Shown here piece after piece: positions 39,116 to 62,167 of a DNA stretch of 64,000 nt. The stretch comes from Chryseobacterium gallinarum (GTDB lineage: Bacteria; Bacteroidota; Bacteroidia; Flavobacteriales; Weeksellaceae): the NCBI RefSeq assembly GCF_001021975.1, contig NZ_CP009928.1:372001-436000 (forward strand). The letters are read 5' to 3'. The stretch's first letter is position 1, and each line of letters starts with the position of its first letter. A program made the position numbers and the translations under genes. The notes below the pieces were generated by a model that saw only the letters and a list, made by a program, of their open reading frames with translations, had not been told where the DNA came from and searched no databases.

Positions 39116-39224
39116 TGTAACTTTGTCTGCTGATAATTATTATTGCAAAATTAACAAAAGATTATTTGCGGAAAATATTGCTTATTATAATGATTTTATG
39201 ATGATGAATTTTGGGTTAAGTTCA

Positions 39225-39295
39225 GGTTTTGCTAAAGCCAGAAGTATTTTCATATTTTTATTTATTTGAGCGGGCTAAAGCCACTCCTATTGACG
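39225..39295 (+). repeat. REP-like paired palindrome, copy 1
   Basis: Contains TTTTGCTAAAGCCA (39227-39240), a 30-base AT-rich spacer, then AGCGGGCTAAAGCC and CTCCTATTGA (39269-39293). Same two-part layout and ending as the copies beside the transposase at 53.1 kb. Confidence 0.8.
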
Positions 39296-40448: not shown

Positions 40449-40500
40449 TTTGCCTAAAATAGCTATGGCAAACTTTGATGTGTTATGAATATTGTTGTAA

Positions 40501-40568
40501 GCTTTAGCTAAAGCCAATGGAATTTTGATCTATTTATTTAAGCGGGCTAAAACCCTCTCCTATTGATC
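40501..40568 (+). repeat. REP-like paired palindrome, copy 2
   Basis: TTAGCTAAAGCCAATGG, AT-rich spacer, then AGCGGGCTAAAACCC and CTCCTATTGATC. Second palindrome has one base changed (AAAACCC). Confidence 0.78.
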
Positions 40569-40623: not shown

Positions 40624-40653
40624 CTATAGGGCTGAAGCTCACTCCTATTGATG
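40624..40653 (+). repeat. REP-like half module, copy 3 (degenerate)
   Basis: AGGGCTGAAGCTC followed by ACTCCTATTGATG: only the second half of the module, with two changed bases. It is followed by AACAAAAATATCA, also seen after copy 1. Confidence 0.6.
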
Positions 40654-50311: not shown

Positions 50312-50635
50312 ATGAGAAAAACTCAGATTACGATAGATGTAGAGCTGGATGAAAATCACATTCCTGAAAATATTACCTGGAATGCACAGGACGGGGGAAT
50401 TGAAAAGGAAGAAACAAAAGCAACGATGATCTCTGTATGGGATGATAAAGCAATGGAAGCCTTAAGAATTGACCTTTGGACAAAGGAAATGCCTGTAGAT
50501 CAAATGAAAATGTTTATTCACCAGATCTTAATTTCTTTAGGAAACACCTATCAGAGAGCTACCGGTGAAGAAGATGTGGCACAGTGGATGGAAGAAATTG
50601 CAGAAGAGTTTGCGGTAAAATCAGCAATAAAATAA
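50312..50635 (+). CDS. gldC: Gliding motility protein GldC
   Basis: 107-residue soluble protein beginning MRKTQITIDVELDENHIPENITWNAQDGG, the GldC opening, with DLWTKEMPVDQMKMFIHQIL and an acidic C-terminal half. In F. johnsoniae GldC supports gliding but is not fully essential; its biochemical role is unknown. It is next to gldB as in other gliders, here with a terminator and its own -7 element in between. Confidence 0.9.
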   Translation: MRKTQITIDVELDENHIPENITWNAQDGGIEKEETKATMISVWDDKAMEALRIDLWTKEMPVDQMKMFIHQILISLGNTYQRATGEEDVAQWMEEIAEEFAVKSAIK

Positions 50636-52420: not shown

Positions 52421-52933
52421 ATGACAGATTTTCAAAAATATATCCAAAGATATTTAGACCAGATTCCATCCGGAGATTGGCTAGCTGAATTAAAAATTTC
52501 AGAAGAAAAAACAGTAGGAATTTACTCCAACCTTACTGAAGAACAATCCAGATTCGCTTATGCTGAAGGGAAATGGACCCTTAAAGGACTGTTGCTACAT
52601 CTATCAGATACGGAAAGGGTATTTCAGTACAGAATATTAGCCTTTGCAAGAGGTGACAAAAACAATCTGCCGGGATTTGATGAAAATGAATATGCAGACC
52701 ATTCTTTTGCTGATGAAAGAACTTTAGAATCTTTGCTGGAAGAATATAAGCTTGTAAGAAAATCCTCTCGGATTCTCCTGGAAACCCTTCACCCTTCTGC
52801 TTTACAAAATACGGGTATTGCCAATGGTCATGAAATTTCCGTAGAAACCATTGCAAAGTTGATTATAGGCCACAATTATCACCACCTGAATATTATTGAG
52901 GAAAGATATTTATCAAAATTGGGATGGATGTGA
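52421..52933 (+). CDS. DinB-family protein
   Basis: 170-residue protein from the ATG at 52421 (MTDFQKYIQRYLDQ); the longer frame begins inside the previous gene's tail. Four-helix-bundle DinB features are visible: a metal-binding histidine in GLLLHLSDTERVFQYR and two more in IGHNYHHLNIIEERYL. These proteins are metal-dependent, often thiol-transferase-like or of unknown function. Confidence 0.87.
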   Translation: MTDFQKYIQRYLDQIPSGDWLAELKISEEKTVGIYSNLTEEQSRFAYAEGKWTLKGLLLHLSDTERVFQYRILAFARGDKNNLPGFDENEYADHSFADERTLESLLEEYKLVRKSSRILLETLHPSALQNTGIANGHEISVETIAKLIIGHNYHHLNIIEERYLSKLGWM

Positions 52934-52943
52934 GAATCAAAAT

Positions 52944-53090
52944 AAGTTTTGGCTAAAGGCCATTTCTATTGTTATGATAACACAATCATTCATTATTTTT
53001 GATATAAATCAATATATTAAACATTATTAGGAGCGGGCTTTAGCCCGCTTTTCATTAAATTAACCATCCATTGGCTTCAGCCAAAACTTA
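52944..53090. repeat. REP-like palindromic pair flanking the transposase (left)
   Basis: Two modules facing each other. First: AAGTTTTGGCTAAAGGCC (52944-52961), which looks like the module with its middle deleted, then TTCTATTG. After a spacer with ATAACACAATCATTCATT the second module is inverted: GAGCGGGCTTTAGCCCGC (53031-53048), a 22-base spacer, then CCATTGGCTTCAGCCAAAAC (53068-53087). The right flank has the same pair and spacer words. Confidence 0.85.
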
Positions 53091-53121
53091 AAAGTTGTTA
53101 TTTTTGATAAAAACAACACAA

Positions 53122-53550
53122 ATGTCTTTTATCAAAATTTATATCCATCTTGTTTTCTCAACGAAAAACAGAGAATCACTACTTTCTACTTCTAACTTAA
53201 GAATAAAAGTTTGGAAACACATTAAGGAATATGCTACGGAAAAAGGAATTTTTCTGGATATGATTAATGATTACTCAGATCATTGTCATTGTTTGATTTC
53301 TTTAAGGTCTGATCAAAATATAGAAAAAGTTGTACAGTTATTAAAAGGTGAATCTTCTTATTGGATCAATAAAAATCAATTGACAAGAGGAAAATTTTCT
53401 TGGCAGGATGAATATTTTGCTGTTTCTGTTTCAGAGTCGATGATAGGTTCCGTGAGGAATTATATTAAAAATCAGGAAAAACATCATCAAAGGAAAAGTT
53501 TTATGGACGAATACAAGGGATTTATTGAAAAATACAATTTCAAAATATAA
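53122..53550 (+). mobile_element. HUH/Y1 transposase, IS200 / REP-associated (RAYT) type
   Basis: 142-residue single-domain Y1 transposase from the ATG at 53122 (MSFIKIYIHLVFSTKNRESL); the longer frame starts at a TTG and is unlikely. The HUH motif is H54-C55-H56 (DHCHCLISL) and the catalytic tyrosine is Y114 (RNYIKNQEKHH). The ending FMDEYKGFIEKYNFKI matches the IS200-like family. No TnpB accessory gene is next to it. It is bracketed at both ends by paired palindromes whose core recurs elsewhere in the window. This is how REP-associated tyrosine transposases are arranged, so it may be a domesticated copy-spreading enzyme rather than an active insertion sequence. Confidence 0.88.
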
Positions 53551-53551
53551 T

Positions 53552-53742
53552 AAGTTTTGGCTAAAGCCAATGCATATATGATTTTTATTTAATGGGCTAA
53601 AGCCCATTTCTATTGATACGAATAACACAATATTCATTTATTTTTTCATGTATTTACACCAACAATATTAACTATCAATAGGAGCGCGGGCTTTAGCCCG
53701 CTTTTCATTTAAATAACCATCCATTGGCTTTAGCCAAAATTT
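53552..53742. repeat. REP-like palindromic pair flanking the transposase (right)
   Basis: Direct module: AAGTTTTGGCTAAAGCCAAT (53553-53572), an AT-rich spacer, ATGGGCTAAAGCCCAT (53592-53607) and TTCTATTGAT. After ATAACACAATATTCATTTATT comes the inverted module: ATCAATAGGAGCGCGGGC with TTTAGCCCGC (53674-53701), then CCATTGGCTTTAGCCAAAAT (53721-53740). It starts one base after the transposase stop codon. Confidence 0.88.
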
Positions 53743-53829
53743 AAAAACACACCGACATTTATATCTTAATTTTTTGCCTGAAAAACACAGATTCTCTACC
53801 TTTATCCATTCGTTTGAACCAATACAATT

Positions 53830-54378
53830 ATGGAACATATTATCGAGATATTAAAATCCGGCGGAACTATTCTTTACCCTACAGATACCATCTGGGGAAT
53901 TGGCTGTGATGCTACCAATACAGAGGCTGTCAATAAAATATTTGACATTAAAAAACGTGAAAAAAACAAATCCATGATCATTTTGGTGGAGTCTGAGAAG
54001 AGGCTTCAGGATTTGGTGGATGTCCCTGAAATGGCGTGGGAGATTATTGACCTTAGTGAAAAACCGGTAACTATTGTTTACGAAAATCCGAGAGGCCTTC
54101 CTAAAGAATTACTTGCAGAAGACGGCAGTATCGGAATCCGACTGGTAAAGAATGATTTCTGCAAAAAACTGATAACCAAACTGAATAAGCCTTTGGTTTC
54201 AACATCAGCTAATTTCAGCGGTGAAAAAAGTCCGTTACGATTTTCTGACATTTCCCCTGAAATGATTAAACTTGTTGACTATGCCGTAGAAGAAGACAGG
54301 GATAAAGTTTCAAAGTATTCAGGCTCTTCGGTGATTAAAATATGGAGTGATAACAGGATTAAAGTTCTTCGGGAATAA
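53830..54378 (+). CDS. tsaC: L-threonylcarbamoyladenylate synthase (Sua5/YrdC family)
   Basis: Makes threonylcarbamoyl-AMP for the t6A37 modification of tRNA. The 182-residue protein has the YrdC fold: GGTILYPTDTIWGIGCDATN, IKKREKNKSMIILV (KRxxNK), VSTSANFSGEKSP and the C-terminal SSVIKIWSDNRIKVLRE. Single-domain, so TsaC-like rather than the two-domain Sua5. Start chosen at the first ATG after the repeats. Confidence 0.92.
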   Translation: MEHIIEILKSGGTILYPTDTIWGIGCDATNTEAVNKIFDIKKREKNKSMIILVESEKRLQDLVDVPEMAWEIIDLSEKPVTIVYENPRGLPKELLAEDGSIGIRLVKNDFCKKLITKLNKPLVSTSANFSGEKSPLRFSDISPEMIKLVDYAVEEDRDKVSKYSGSSVIKIWSDNRIKVLRE

Positions 54379-61568: not shown

Positions 61569-62105
61569 ATGGATATAAAAAAACTACTGAAACTAACCGA
61601 TAATCCCAGCCTCACATGGGGACATAACGGTTATACAACAGACAGGATATATTCAGTTTCTTCCATCGAATATGCAGGGTCTTTTGAATTTTCATTAAGA
61701 GAAAAATCTTTCCCTTACACCAAAGTCTGGGAAACCGGTAGTGAAGATATTGAAGAGCTTAATCTTATCATTGAAAAAGGTCATTCTTTTGGTGCTTTTA
61801 TTAATAATGAACTGATAGGCTGGATCATCTGTGAGCAAAGAACATGGAATAACAGTTTCTATATTGAAAACATCCTGATTGACGAAAAATACAGGAGACT
61901 GGGAGTAGGAATACAGCTGATTAAAAATGCCGTAAAAGAAGCCAGGAAATTAAACTGTCGGGTTATAGAACTCGAAACCCAAAACACCAATTACCCCGCC
62001 ATACAGTTTTACAGAAGGATGGGTTTCAATATTACGGGGGTGAATACAAGGCTTTATGACAATGCGGAAGAAATAGCGCTTTTCATGACGTTAGATATAG
62101 AATAG
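61569..62105 (+). CDS. GNAT N-acetyltransferase
   Basis: 178-residue acetyltransferase with NILIDEKYRRLGVGIQLIKN (acetyl-CoA motif) and ELETQNTNYPAIQFYRRMGF. The N-terminal half is variable; substrate unknown, although the layout is like streptothricin- or aminoglycoside-type small-molecule acetyltransferases. The stop codon overlaps the start of the REP-like repeat by two bases. Confidence 0.88.
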   Translation: MDIKKLLKLTDNPSLTWGHNGYTTDRIYSVSSIEYAGSFEFSLREKSFPYTKVWETGSEDIEELNLIIEKGHSFGAFINNELIGWIICEQRTWNNSFYIENILIDEKYRRLGVGIQLIKNAVKEARKLNCRVIELETQNTNYPAIQFYRRMGFNITGVNTRLYDNAEEIALFMTLDIE

Positions 62106-62167
62106 TTTTGGCTATAGCGCGGATAATGTATGTATATTGGAAGCGGCTAAAGCCACTCCCTGTTGAT
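62104..62167 (+). repeat. REP-like paired palindrome, degenerate copy at 62.1 kb
   Basis: AGTTTTGGCTATAGCGC, AT-rich spacer, then AAGCGGCTAAAGCC and ACTCCCTGTTGATA. The first palindrome is damaged; the second and the ending are recognisable. It starts on the stop codon of the acetyltransferase. Confidence 0.72.

Follow-up and report, generated by a model that had tools for sequence, protein, structure and literature searches.

The ends of IS200/IS605 elements bear hairpins of the same polarity. For two members of the family, IS608 and ISDra2, excision and insertion favor the lagging-strand template, and across the family the orientation of elements recapitulates the direction of replication (PMC5371812, in the part available to us). 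Among TnpA-Y1 enzymes, subclass 1.2 is marked by WQ and Y---Q--HH motifs; a table in the accessible portion of the survey enters “no” under REP for this subclass, and its members are said there to lack, as a rule, the terminal structures typical of IS200 (Quentin et al. 2018; PMC6006769). REPtrons, known for RAYT/TnpAREP groups 2 and 3 of Escherichia coli, Stenotrophomonas, and Pseudomonas, consist of a mostly single-copy, settled Y1 gene between inverted palindromic repeats, with many intergenic copies of the repeat and a GT[AG]G tag 5′ of the hairpin on the presumed active strand. Bertels and Rainey (2011; PMC3116915, as excerpted) regard inverted doublets as the live unit, the REPIN, and singlets as defunct. 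A passage of PMC8266576 describes the spread of REP sequences as an unresolved question. TIRYT/TIR elements, in the available part of their 2013 description (PMC3733652), combine a Y1 gene with long inverted flanks that recur elsewhere in the genome.

Literature searches on RAYT and REP in Bacteroidetes, Chryseobacterium, and Flavobacterium and on REP orientation with respect to replication returned, among the matches listed, no description of the modules reported below. In a 2024 paper on resistomes, a Chryseobacterium gene near abeS is called “RayT” and is interpreted as having inserted recently, in connection with clinical isolates; the available portion of that text nowhere uses the stem “palindrom” (PMC11194056). 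RepRanger gives REP counts for two Flavobacterium genomes, and “RAYT” is absent from the accessible part of the paper (PMC12306157).

We analyzed a stretch of 64,000 nucleotides of the Chryseobacterium gallinarum genome (here called the window), which corresponds to positions 372001 to 436000 of a 4.63-Mb single-contig genome (G000). An initial annotation of the window had noticed palindromes around a transposase gene and had read them as a flavobacterial REP/RAYT family with nonautonomous copies spread by the enzyme. The finding is confirmed, and the interpretation was right in kind but needs correction: the system is REPtron-like, but its enzyme is of a non-RAYT subclass, its unit is asymmetric, and the units are oriented with replication.

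As in REPtrons, a mostly single-copy, settled Y1 gene lies between inverted palindromic repeats, many more copies are intergenic, and a tag stands 5′ of the hairpin on the presumed active strand. Unlike in REPtrons, the enzyme scores below the RAYT model cutoff and carries a Y---Q--HH motif, the tag is (T)CAATAG rather than GT[AG]G, there is a second, fixed hairpin, and singles rather than inverted doublets form the largest class. The HUH/Y1 core, the two hairpins of the same polarity, and the replication-following orientation are shared with IS608, ISDra2, and the IS200/IS605 family generally (PMC5371812, same part), but here the gene is immobile and outside the mobile unit, which is presumed to be only ~70 nt long. 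Short, nonautonomous, intergenic palindromic units that sometimes occur as inverted pairs or tandem arrays are common to this system and to REPINs as excerpted in PMC3116915; the REPIN is an inverted doublet, whereas here singles are the largest class and are asymmetric. TIRYT/TIR elements share the Y1 gene and recurring inverted flanks but have other proteins and other TIR sequences, and no link to replication was seen in the available part of PMC3733652.

Two-hairpin modules bracket a Y1 transposase gene

Table 1. Position, strand, and character of the transposase gene, its neighbors, and all module copies discussed in the window
Feature	Position	Strand	Remarks
DinB_2-family neighbor	52421..52933	+	Synteny marker
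Left outer module	52943..52972	+	Truncated; deletion derivative, two hairpins fused
Left inner module	53023..53090	-	Two hairpins; directly upstream of transposase gene
tnpA-like HUH/Y1 transposase	53122..53550	+	142 aa; DHCH (53-56), WQ (94-95), YIKNQEKHH (114-122)
Right inner module	53551..53617	+	Begins right at the end of the transposase stop codon
Right outer module	53674..53743	-	Inverted partner of right inner module
Sua5/YciO/YrdC neighbor	53830..54378	+	Synteny marker
Solo module	39222..39294	+	Degenerate; intergenic
Solo module	40498..40567	+	AGCTTTAGCTAAAGCC..GGGCTAAAACCCTCTCCTATTGAT
Half module	40629..40652	+	Only second hairpin and tail
Solo module	62103..62167	+	Degenerate; starts at stop codon of GNAT gene, between convergent genes

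The annotation had proposed that inverted two-part palindromes with matching spacer words bracket the HUH/Y1 gene. Inspection of both flanks and comparison of the repeats bore this out (Table 1): the left inner module is inverted relative to the right inner module, and the spacer words belong to repeats that are 74% identical between 52951-53000 and 53595-53644 and 93% identical between 53033-53093 and 53686-53746. The far-left module, however, is a fused deletion derivative. The four solo places that had been listed all exist, but in a degraded state, the copies at 39222 and 62103 being degenerate and that at 40629 only half a module.

With up to 2 mismatches allowed, GGGCTAAAGCCC has 15 matches on the two strands of the window (three palindromic sites are counted twice), compared to a mean of 2.8 in shuffled sequences; none of 100 shuffles reached 15. 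The tail of the upstream copy is ATTATTAGG, not ATCAATAGG. A module is ~70 nt long and contains two hairpins of the same polarity. On the presumed active strand, the consensus reads 5′-WTCAATAG, a hairpin (GGGCTTTAGCCC plus three variable pairs), ~20 nt, a second hairpin (GGCTTTAGCC), and AAAACYTAA-3′. A similar hairpin occurs in the Haemophilus influenzae REP GTAGGGTGGGCTTTAGCCCACC (Nunvar 2010, in excerpt). Folded as single-stranded DNA (ssDNA), three gene-flanking modules each gave two separate hairpins, one module on both strands and two on one strand, with z-scores of -1.9 to -3.9; the degenerate solo copy at 40500 gave a z-score of only -0.6.

The modules have no GTAG tag. At the 5′ foot of the hairpin, where GT[AG]G would stand, the gene-flanking modules read (T)CAATAG; these modules, from the window and most of loci L028-L057, were located through the gene and not through the motif. 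When 43 distinct dispersed modules from two genomes were aligned, the end TTARGTTTTGGC was conserved even though it lies outside the search pattern, and conservation was lost past CTATTGAW. The CTATTGA tail itself belonged to the search pattern, and for the tail the dispersed copies are no independent test; it is also present in the gene-flanking copies, which were found via the gene. In some modules (at L155 and L195, and also at L030), another short palindromic repeat, of the CTTCGACTATGCTCAGGA type, lies within the second hairpin, as if that repeat family had inserted into the module family.

The pairs that extend the inner stem vary together. Across 261 distinct copies, retrieved by a search that fixed only the 12-base core and the tail, extension pairs -1, -2, and -3 were complementary in 94, 93, and 98% of copies, frequencies that common descent inflates, with many copies at one gene locus across species. 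The corresponding means after shuffling were 56, 66, and 78%, and the maxima were 64, 73, and 83%. Beyond the stem extension, pair -4 was not complementary in the same 261 copies. Eleven different complementary triplets were listed, and just two of them account for 177 of the 261 copies; the result stands when 83 distinct extension pairs are counted instead (86, 81, and 93% complementary). This pattern of covariation argues that the hairpins are under selection.

The transposase has IS200-type features and lies outside the classical RAYT class by its motifs

The protein matches Pfam Y1_Tnp with 94 bits and has, by sequence, an HUH motif and a single catalytic tyrosine. ISHp608 TnpA matches its residues 8 to 138 with an E value of 3e-6. 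Against the NCBIfam model for IS200 TnpA (NF033573) it scores 63.3 bits, above the cutoff of 55; against REP_Tyr_transpos it scores 32 bits, below the cutoff of 80, and it reads YIKNQEKHH instead of the YIxxNP of RAYTs. All 24 members of alignment A1 matched both NCBIfam models at an E value of ≤0.001, with scores set against cutoffs for the first of the 24 members only. H54, C55, W94, Q95, Y114, Q118, and H122 are invariant in all 79 sequences compared (the window protein and 78 of the 80 fetched loci), and H56 is kept in 78 of the 79.

Judged by these scores and motifs, the enzyme is outside the classical RAYT class (class 2). Its motifs largely fit TnpA-Y1 subclass 1.2, an assignment made from motifs, with the published members compared by description. 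The traits shared with that subclass, as described in the available part of PMC6006769, are the Y---Q--HH motif (here YIKNQ..HH), WQ, a length of ~148 aa, low copy number, and occurrence in Bacteroidetes. The enzyme differs in the middle residue of the HUH motif, which is Cys in 79 of 79 sequences (DHCH) rather than Ile or Val (DH[IV]H), and in being accompanied by flanking and dispersed two-hairpin modules. Database entries name the protein IS200/IS605 family transposase or “REP element-mobilizing transposase RayT” (best 120 of 5678).

Modules are dispersed between genes across the genus

A pattern made of the second hairpin and tail, with ≤3 mismatches, was found at 23 places in the genome of C. 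gallinarum, four of them in the window (two beside the gene and two solo); the pattern written backwards was found at 0. Module copies therefore recur above chance genome-wide. With ≤2 mismatches, the pattern was present in 144 of 148 Chryseobacterium genomes (an even draw from a larger group) with 4437 matches in total, and the backwards control was 0 in every genome. The shuffles and the backwards-pattern counts of 0 ruled out a chance origin of the modules. A search of Rfam gave one weak match, far under the gathering score.

None of 61 modules lay inside an open reading frame of at least 80 aa (61 of 70 modules outside the gene locus, those with the surrounding stretch fetched, inverted pairs included). 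Single modules accounted for 15 of 21 in the window's genome, where 3 had an inverted neighbor, and for 8 of 19 in strain S0630 (G148), where 6 did. In both genomes the largest class of dispersed copies was the single, asymmetric two-hairpin module rather than the inverted REPIN doublet. In Chryseobacterium rhizosphaerae (L069, 8899-9964), four tandem inverted module pairs, ~285 nt apart, lie upstream of the transposase gene.

The gene occupies one conserved locus

A Sua5-like gene is found ≤2.2 kb downstream on the same strand in 45 of the 80 fetched loci, namely, all 43 of L058-L100 together with L103 and L104. Among Weeksellaceae-labelled loci, 45 of 49 have this one conserved locus beside Sua5 (exceptions, L102, L106, L107, and L112); the total counts Halpernia, Kaistella, and Epilithonimonas, which we take to be Weeksellaceae. 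Hand sorting of the 148 genus genomes gave 61 with an intact ortholog, 11 with a broken, partial, or doubtful one, and 76 with none. There is mostly one ortholog per genome, with the exception of local tandem copies in G085 (two copies at C1:4432937-4434043) and fragments in G004, G014, and G060.

A gene set between inverted, dispersed, intergenic palindromic repeats has the layout of a REPtron, and by the locus and ortholog counts the gene is single copy and immobile. What stands of the REP/RAYT family first proposed is this REPtron-like layout, the intergenic dispersal, and the conserved locus; the classical RAYT enzyme and the GTAG tag do not. A gene-bearing element in several copies at varying sites, as expected of an insertion sequence, was not found. 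We consider it very improbable that the gene is an ordinary IS200/IS605 insertion sequence, with the modules as its decayed ends or MITEs. Such an element would suit the above-cutoff score for IS200 TnpA and the resemblance of two same-polarity hairpins to left and right IS ends, but not the single locus kept in 45 of 49 Weeksellaceae-labelled loci, the usual one ortholog per genome, the inverted modules as flanks, or a gene whose multiplication was seen only in local tandem or fragment cases.

Module number and gene presence were compared across the genus. The median module count was 21 in the 76 gene-less genomes and 34 in the 61 genomes with an intact ortholog (P = 0.0012, with kinship uncorrected). 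The association is only modest, and strict dependence of module count on the gene was rejected. The copies are dispersed, as the annotation had said of its nonautonomous elements; that this enzyme spread them is something we infer, gene-less genomes holding modules as well. Another enzyme, such as a class-2 RAYT or a subclass-1.2 paralog elsewhere, could move the modules, the flanks of the gene being mere landing sites. The many modules of gene-less genomes and the presence of three further Y1 loci in the window's genome speak for this possibility. However, those three loci have different flanking palindromes, and a pattern search placed modules on either side of the ortholog, no farther than 700 bp away, in 40 of the 43 loci L058-L100 (exceptions, L073, L080, and L092). 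Moreover, 8 of 20 gene-less genomes (G083, G070, G141, G047, G017, G124, G015, and G111) keep module motifs at the old locus, ≤1.5 kb upstream of Sua5. We regard movement by another enzyme as improbable. In two other genomes among the 20, G109 and G029, DinB and Sua5 lie close together and no module stands between them.

The orthologs at L102, L106, and L107 have no Sua5 neighbor, and their flanking sequence is alike in all three, which suggests that in these Epilithonimonas-like genomes the gene has settled at a second site. The ortholog described here, a syntenic gene that is missing in many genomes, may or may not be the RayT gene of PMC11194056. An open reading frame at 50312 was considered as an SMR pump, as in the abeS-RayT cluster of that 2024 paper. 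This proved wrong, the product being GldC-like, and nine further open reading frames examined included no member of the SMR family.

Most of the compared module sites are common to related species

The annotation had envisaged comparing synteny at sites with and without a copy. For 17 of 30 fetched loci of S0630, we looked at the corresponding sites in C. indologenes AA5 and C. cucumeris; of 34 possible comparisons, 30 were available. At none of these 17 sites did the two relatives reveal an empty counterpart that would mark a clean new insertion. Module-like hairpins were retained in 25 of the 30 comparisons, and where a site differed, its flanks were rearranged or had diverged. For the solo module at 62103, only one relative had both flanking genes, and it was too diverged for alignment. 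Since most compared sites are common to relatives and no clean insertion was seen, movement of the modules must be rare or past.

Module orientation follows replication

We determined the orientation of exact-motif modules in complete genomes relative to replichores, which were drawn from GC skew in 20 samples of 20 kb from each genome; the gene locus and inverted pairs were left out. In the three genomes for which the module listing was complete (G144, G020, and G126), 55 of 63 singles agreed with the GC-skew replichore (P ~1e-9), the individual genomes giving 23 of 28, 13 of 14, and 19 of 21; the skew switch points were set after the module positions were known, and the second switch point in G126 is weak. 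Agreement was 53 of 60 outside the uncertain zones and 52 of 60 once the part of G126 with weak mapping was removed. A local test, which takes the sign of the skew in the module's own 20-kb stretch and so avoids post hoc switch points, gave weaker agreement in the three genomes (43 of 54; P = 1.4e-5). In the window's own genome, 15 of 20 modules agreed with replication (P = 0.04), and the pooled figure for single modules in four genomes was 70 of 83. Two of the five misses in the window's genome, at 1.33-1.35 Mb, and the two at 2.46-2.47 Mb resemble opposite-orientation copies of each other. C. indologenes AA5 showed a similar two-zone orientation pattern, with skew sampled too thinly for a count.

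Because module orientation agrees with the replichores, the strand that reads 5′-WTCAATAG-hairpin is mostly the lagging-strand template, with origins placed by GC skew. This bias fits lagging-strand ssDNA transposition. A strand preference would be hidden in symmetric REPINs; the asymmetric module offers a genome-scale readout, one that favors replication-coupled single-strand movement. The readout comes from a transposase subclass catalogued as without REPs, and there are many related genomes for testing.

The bias could also reflect gene direction, if the modules were kept chiefly as transcription terminators or stabilizers of mRNA 3′ ends and had been spread once by a transposase that is now irrelevant. 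T-runs follow the first hairpin in several copies, on the strand starting ATCAATAG, the modules sit between genes and often near gene ends, and most compared sites are common to related species (25 of 30 comparisons), all of which agrees with such a role. Between convergent genes, however, where there is no preference of gene direction, 22 of 25 modules still follow replication (P = 1.6e-4, pairs included), and by hand count, 19 of 20 do so without inverted pairs and doubled copies. Moreover, a terminator requires neither a fixed second hairpin nor fixed ends. Where the flanking genes are opposed to the fork, the hand count was 5 versus 3 modules, too few to decide. We judge retention as terminators or 3′-end stabilizers to be unlikely as the main explanation.

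We consider it likely that the locus and its dispersed copies form a REPtron-like system on a TnpA-Y1 enzyme of “subclass 1.2” type, with the ~70-nt modules as minimal nonautonomous single-strand substrates. The HUH/single-tyrosine transposase gene would be settled (domesticated) and itself immobile. TnpA would bind both hairpins of a module on the lagging-strand template, cut near the conserved ends WTCAATAG and AAAACYTAA via Tyr114, and paste the module into ssDNA at another fork. Movement would be rare, and module copies could outlive the gene.

At ~1.33-1.35 Mb and 2.46-2.47 Mb in the window's genome, modules have near-identical flanks on opposite strands, which suggests an inverted segmental duplication. 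dnaA was rejected as an origin marker, the skew switch points lying elsewhere. In the window's genome and in G020, G126, and G144, dnaA is away from the GC-skew switch taken as the origin, so in this genus replication may start at a distance from dnaA.

Many related enzymes in other Bacteroidota have other modules

Orthologs in Flavobacterium, Algoriphagus, Lacihabitans, and other genera are mostly 64 to 70% identical. In many of these, the flanking units again have two hairpins, but the inner one differs; often the GGCTAAAGCC hairpin persists and the other has given way to a new sequence, such as CCTCCAGATAAATCTGGAGG with CAATTCAA as its tail. This account is descriptive, from a script search in which palindromes were left uncounted and some loci had none on one side. 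The Chryseobacterium pattern (≤2 mismatches) was found 31, 45, and 68 times in three Chryseobacterium genomes and 1, 0, 1, 0, 0, 3, and 0 times in seven others. The Flavobacterium-type pattern (≤3 mismatches) was found 0, 0, and 0 times in the former and 2, 1, 17, 9, 1, 1, and 1 times in the latter, with strong dispersal in only two of the seven. From these counts in ten genomes, we concluded that module types are group specific, each nearly absent from the genomes of the other group.

A broader reading, which we put forward tentatively, is that this REP system has an origin of its own. Its enzyme, IS200-like (subclass 1.2) and domesticated, would be present across the Bacteroidota, and the asymmetric substrates would in effect be IS200 elements reduced to a left and a right hairpin, the gene having been lost; their orientation would record fork direction and thereby reveal single-strand spread on the lagging-strand template. 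Such a system may be a step between IS200/IS605 elements and REPINs.

The three further Y1 loci in the window's genome are each flanked by different palindromes. The first (L024; G000:C1:3296280-3299618) encodes a subclass-1.2-like paralog with NHIH, WQ, and YIKNQRQHH motifs. Another palindrome unit (AGTCCCGAAGGGACGATTTAAC..) is repeated four times in tandem beside it, and two further copies of the unit occur elsewhere in the genome. The second (L027; G000:C1:2436949-2440308) encodes a 192-aa class-2-like RAYT with NHFH and YIHNNP motifs between AAACCTATGAGGTTT-type palindromes, and it is another enzyme-repeat pair in this genome. At the third (L026; G000:C1:4061164-4064316), a broken Y1 transposase gene is accompanied by GCTCCGTAGGAGC-type palindromes, followed by a CTRTTAAT-like tail.
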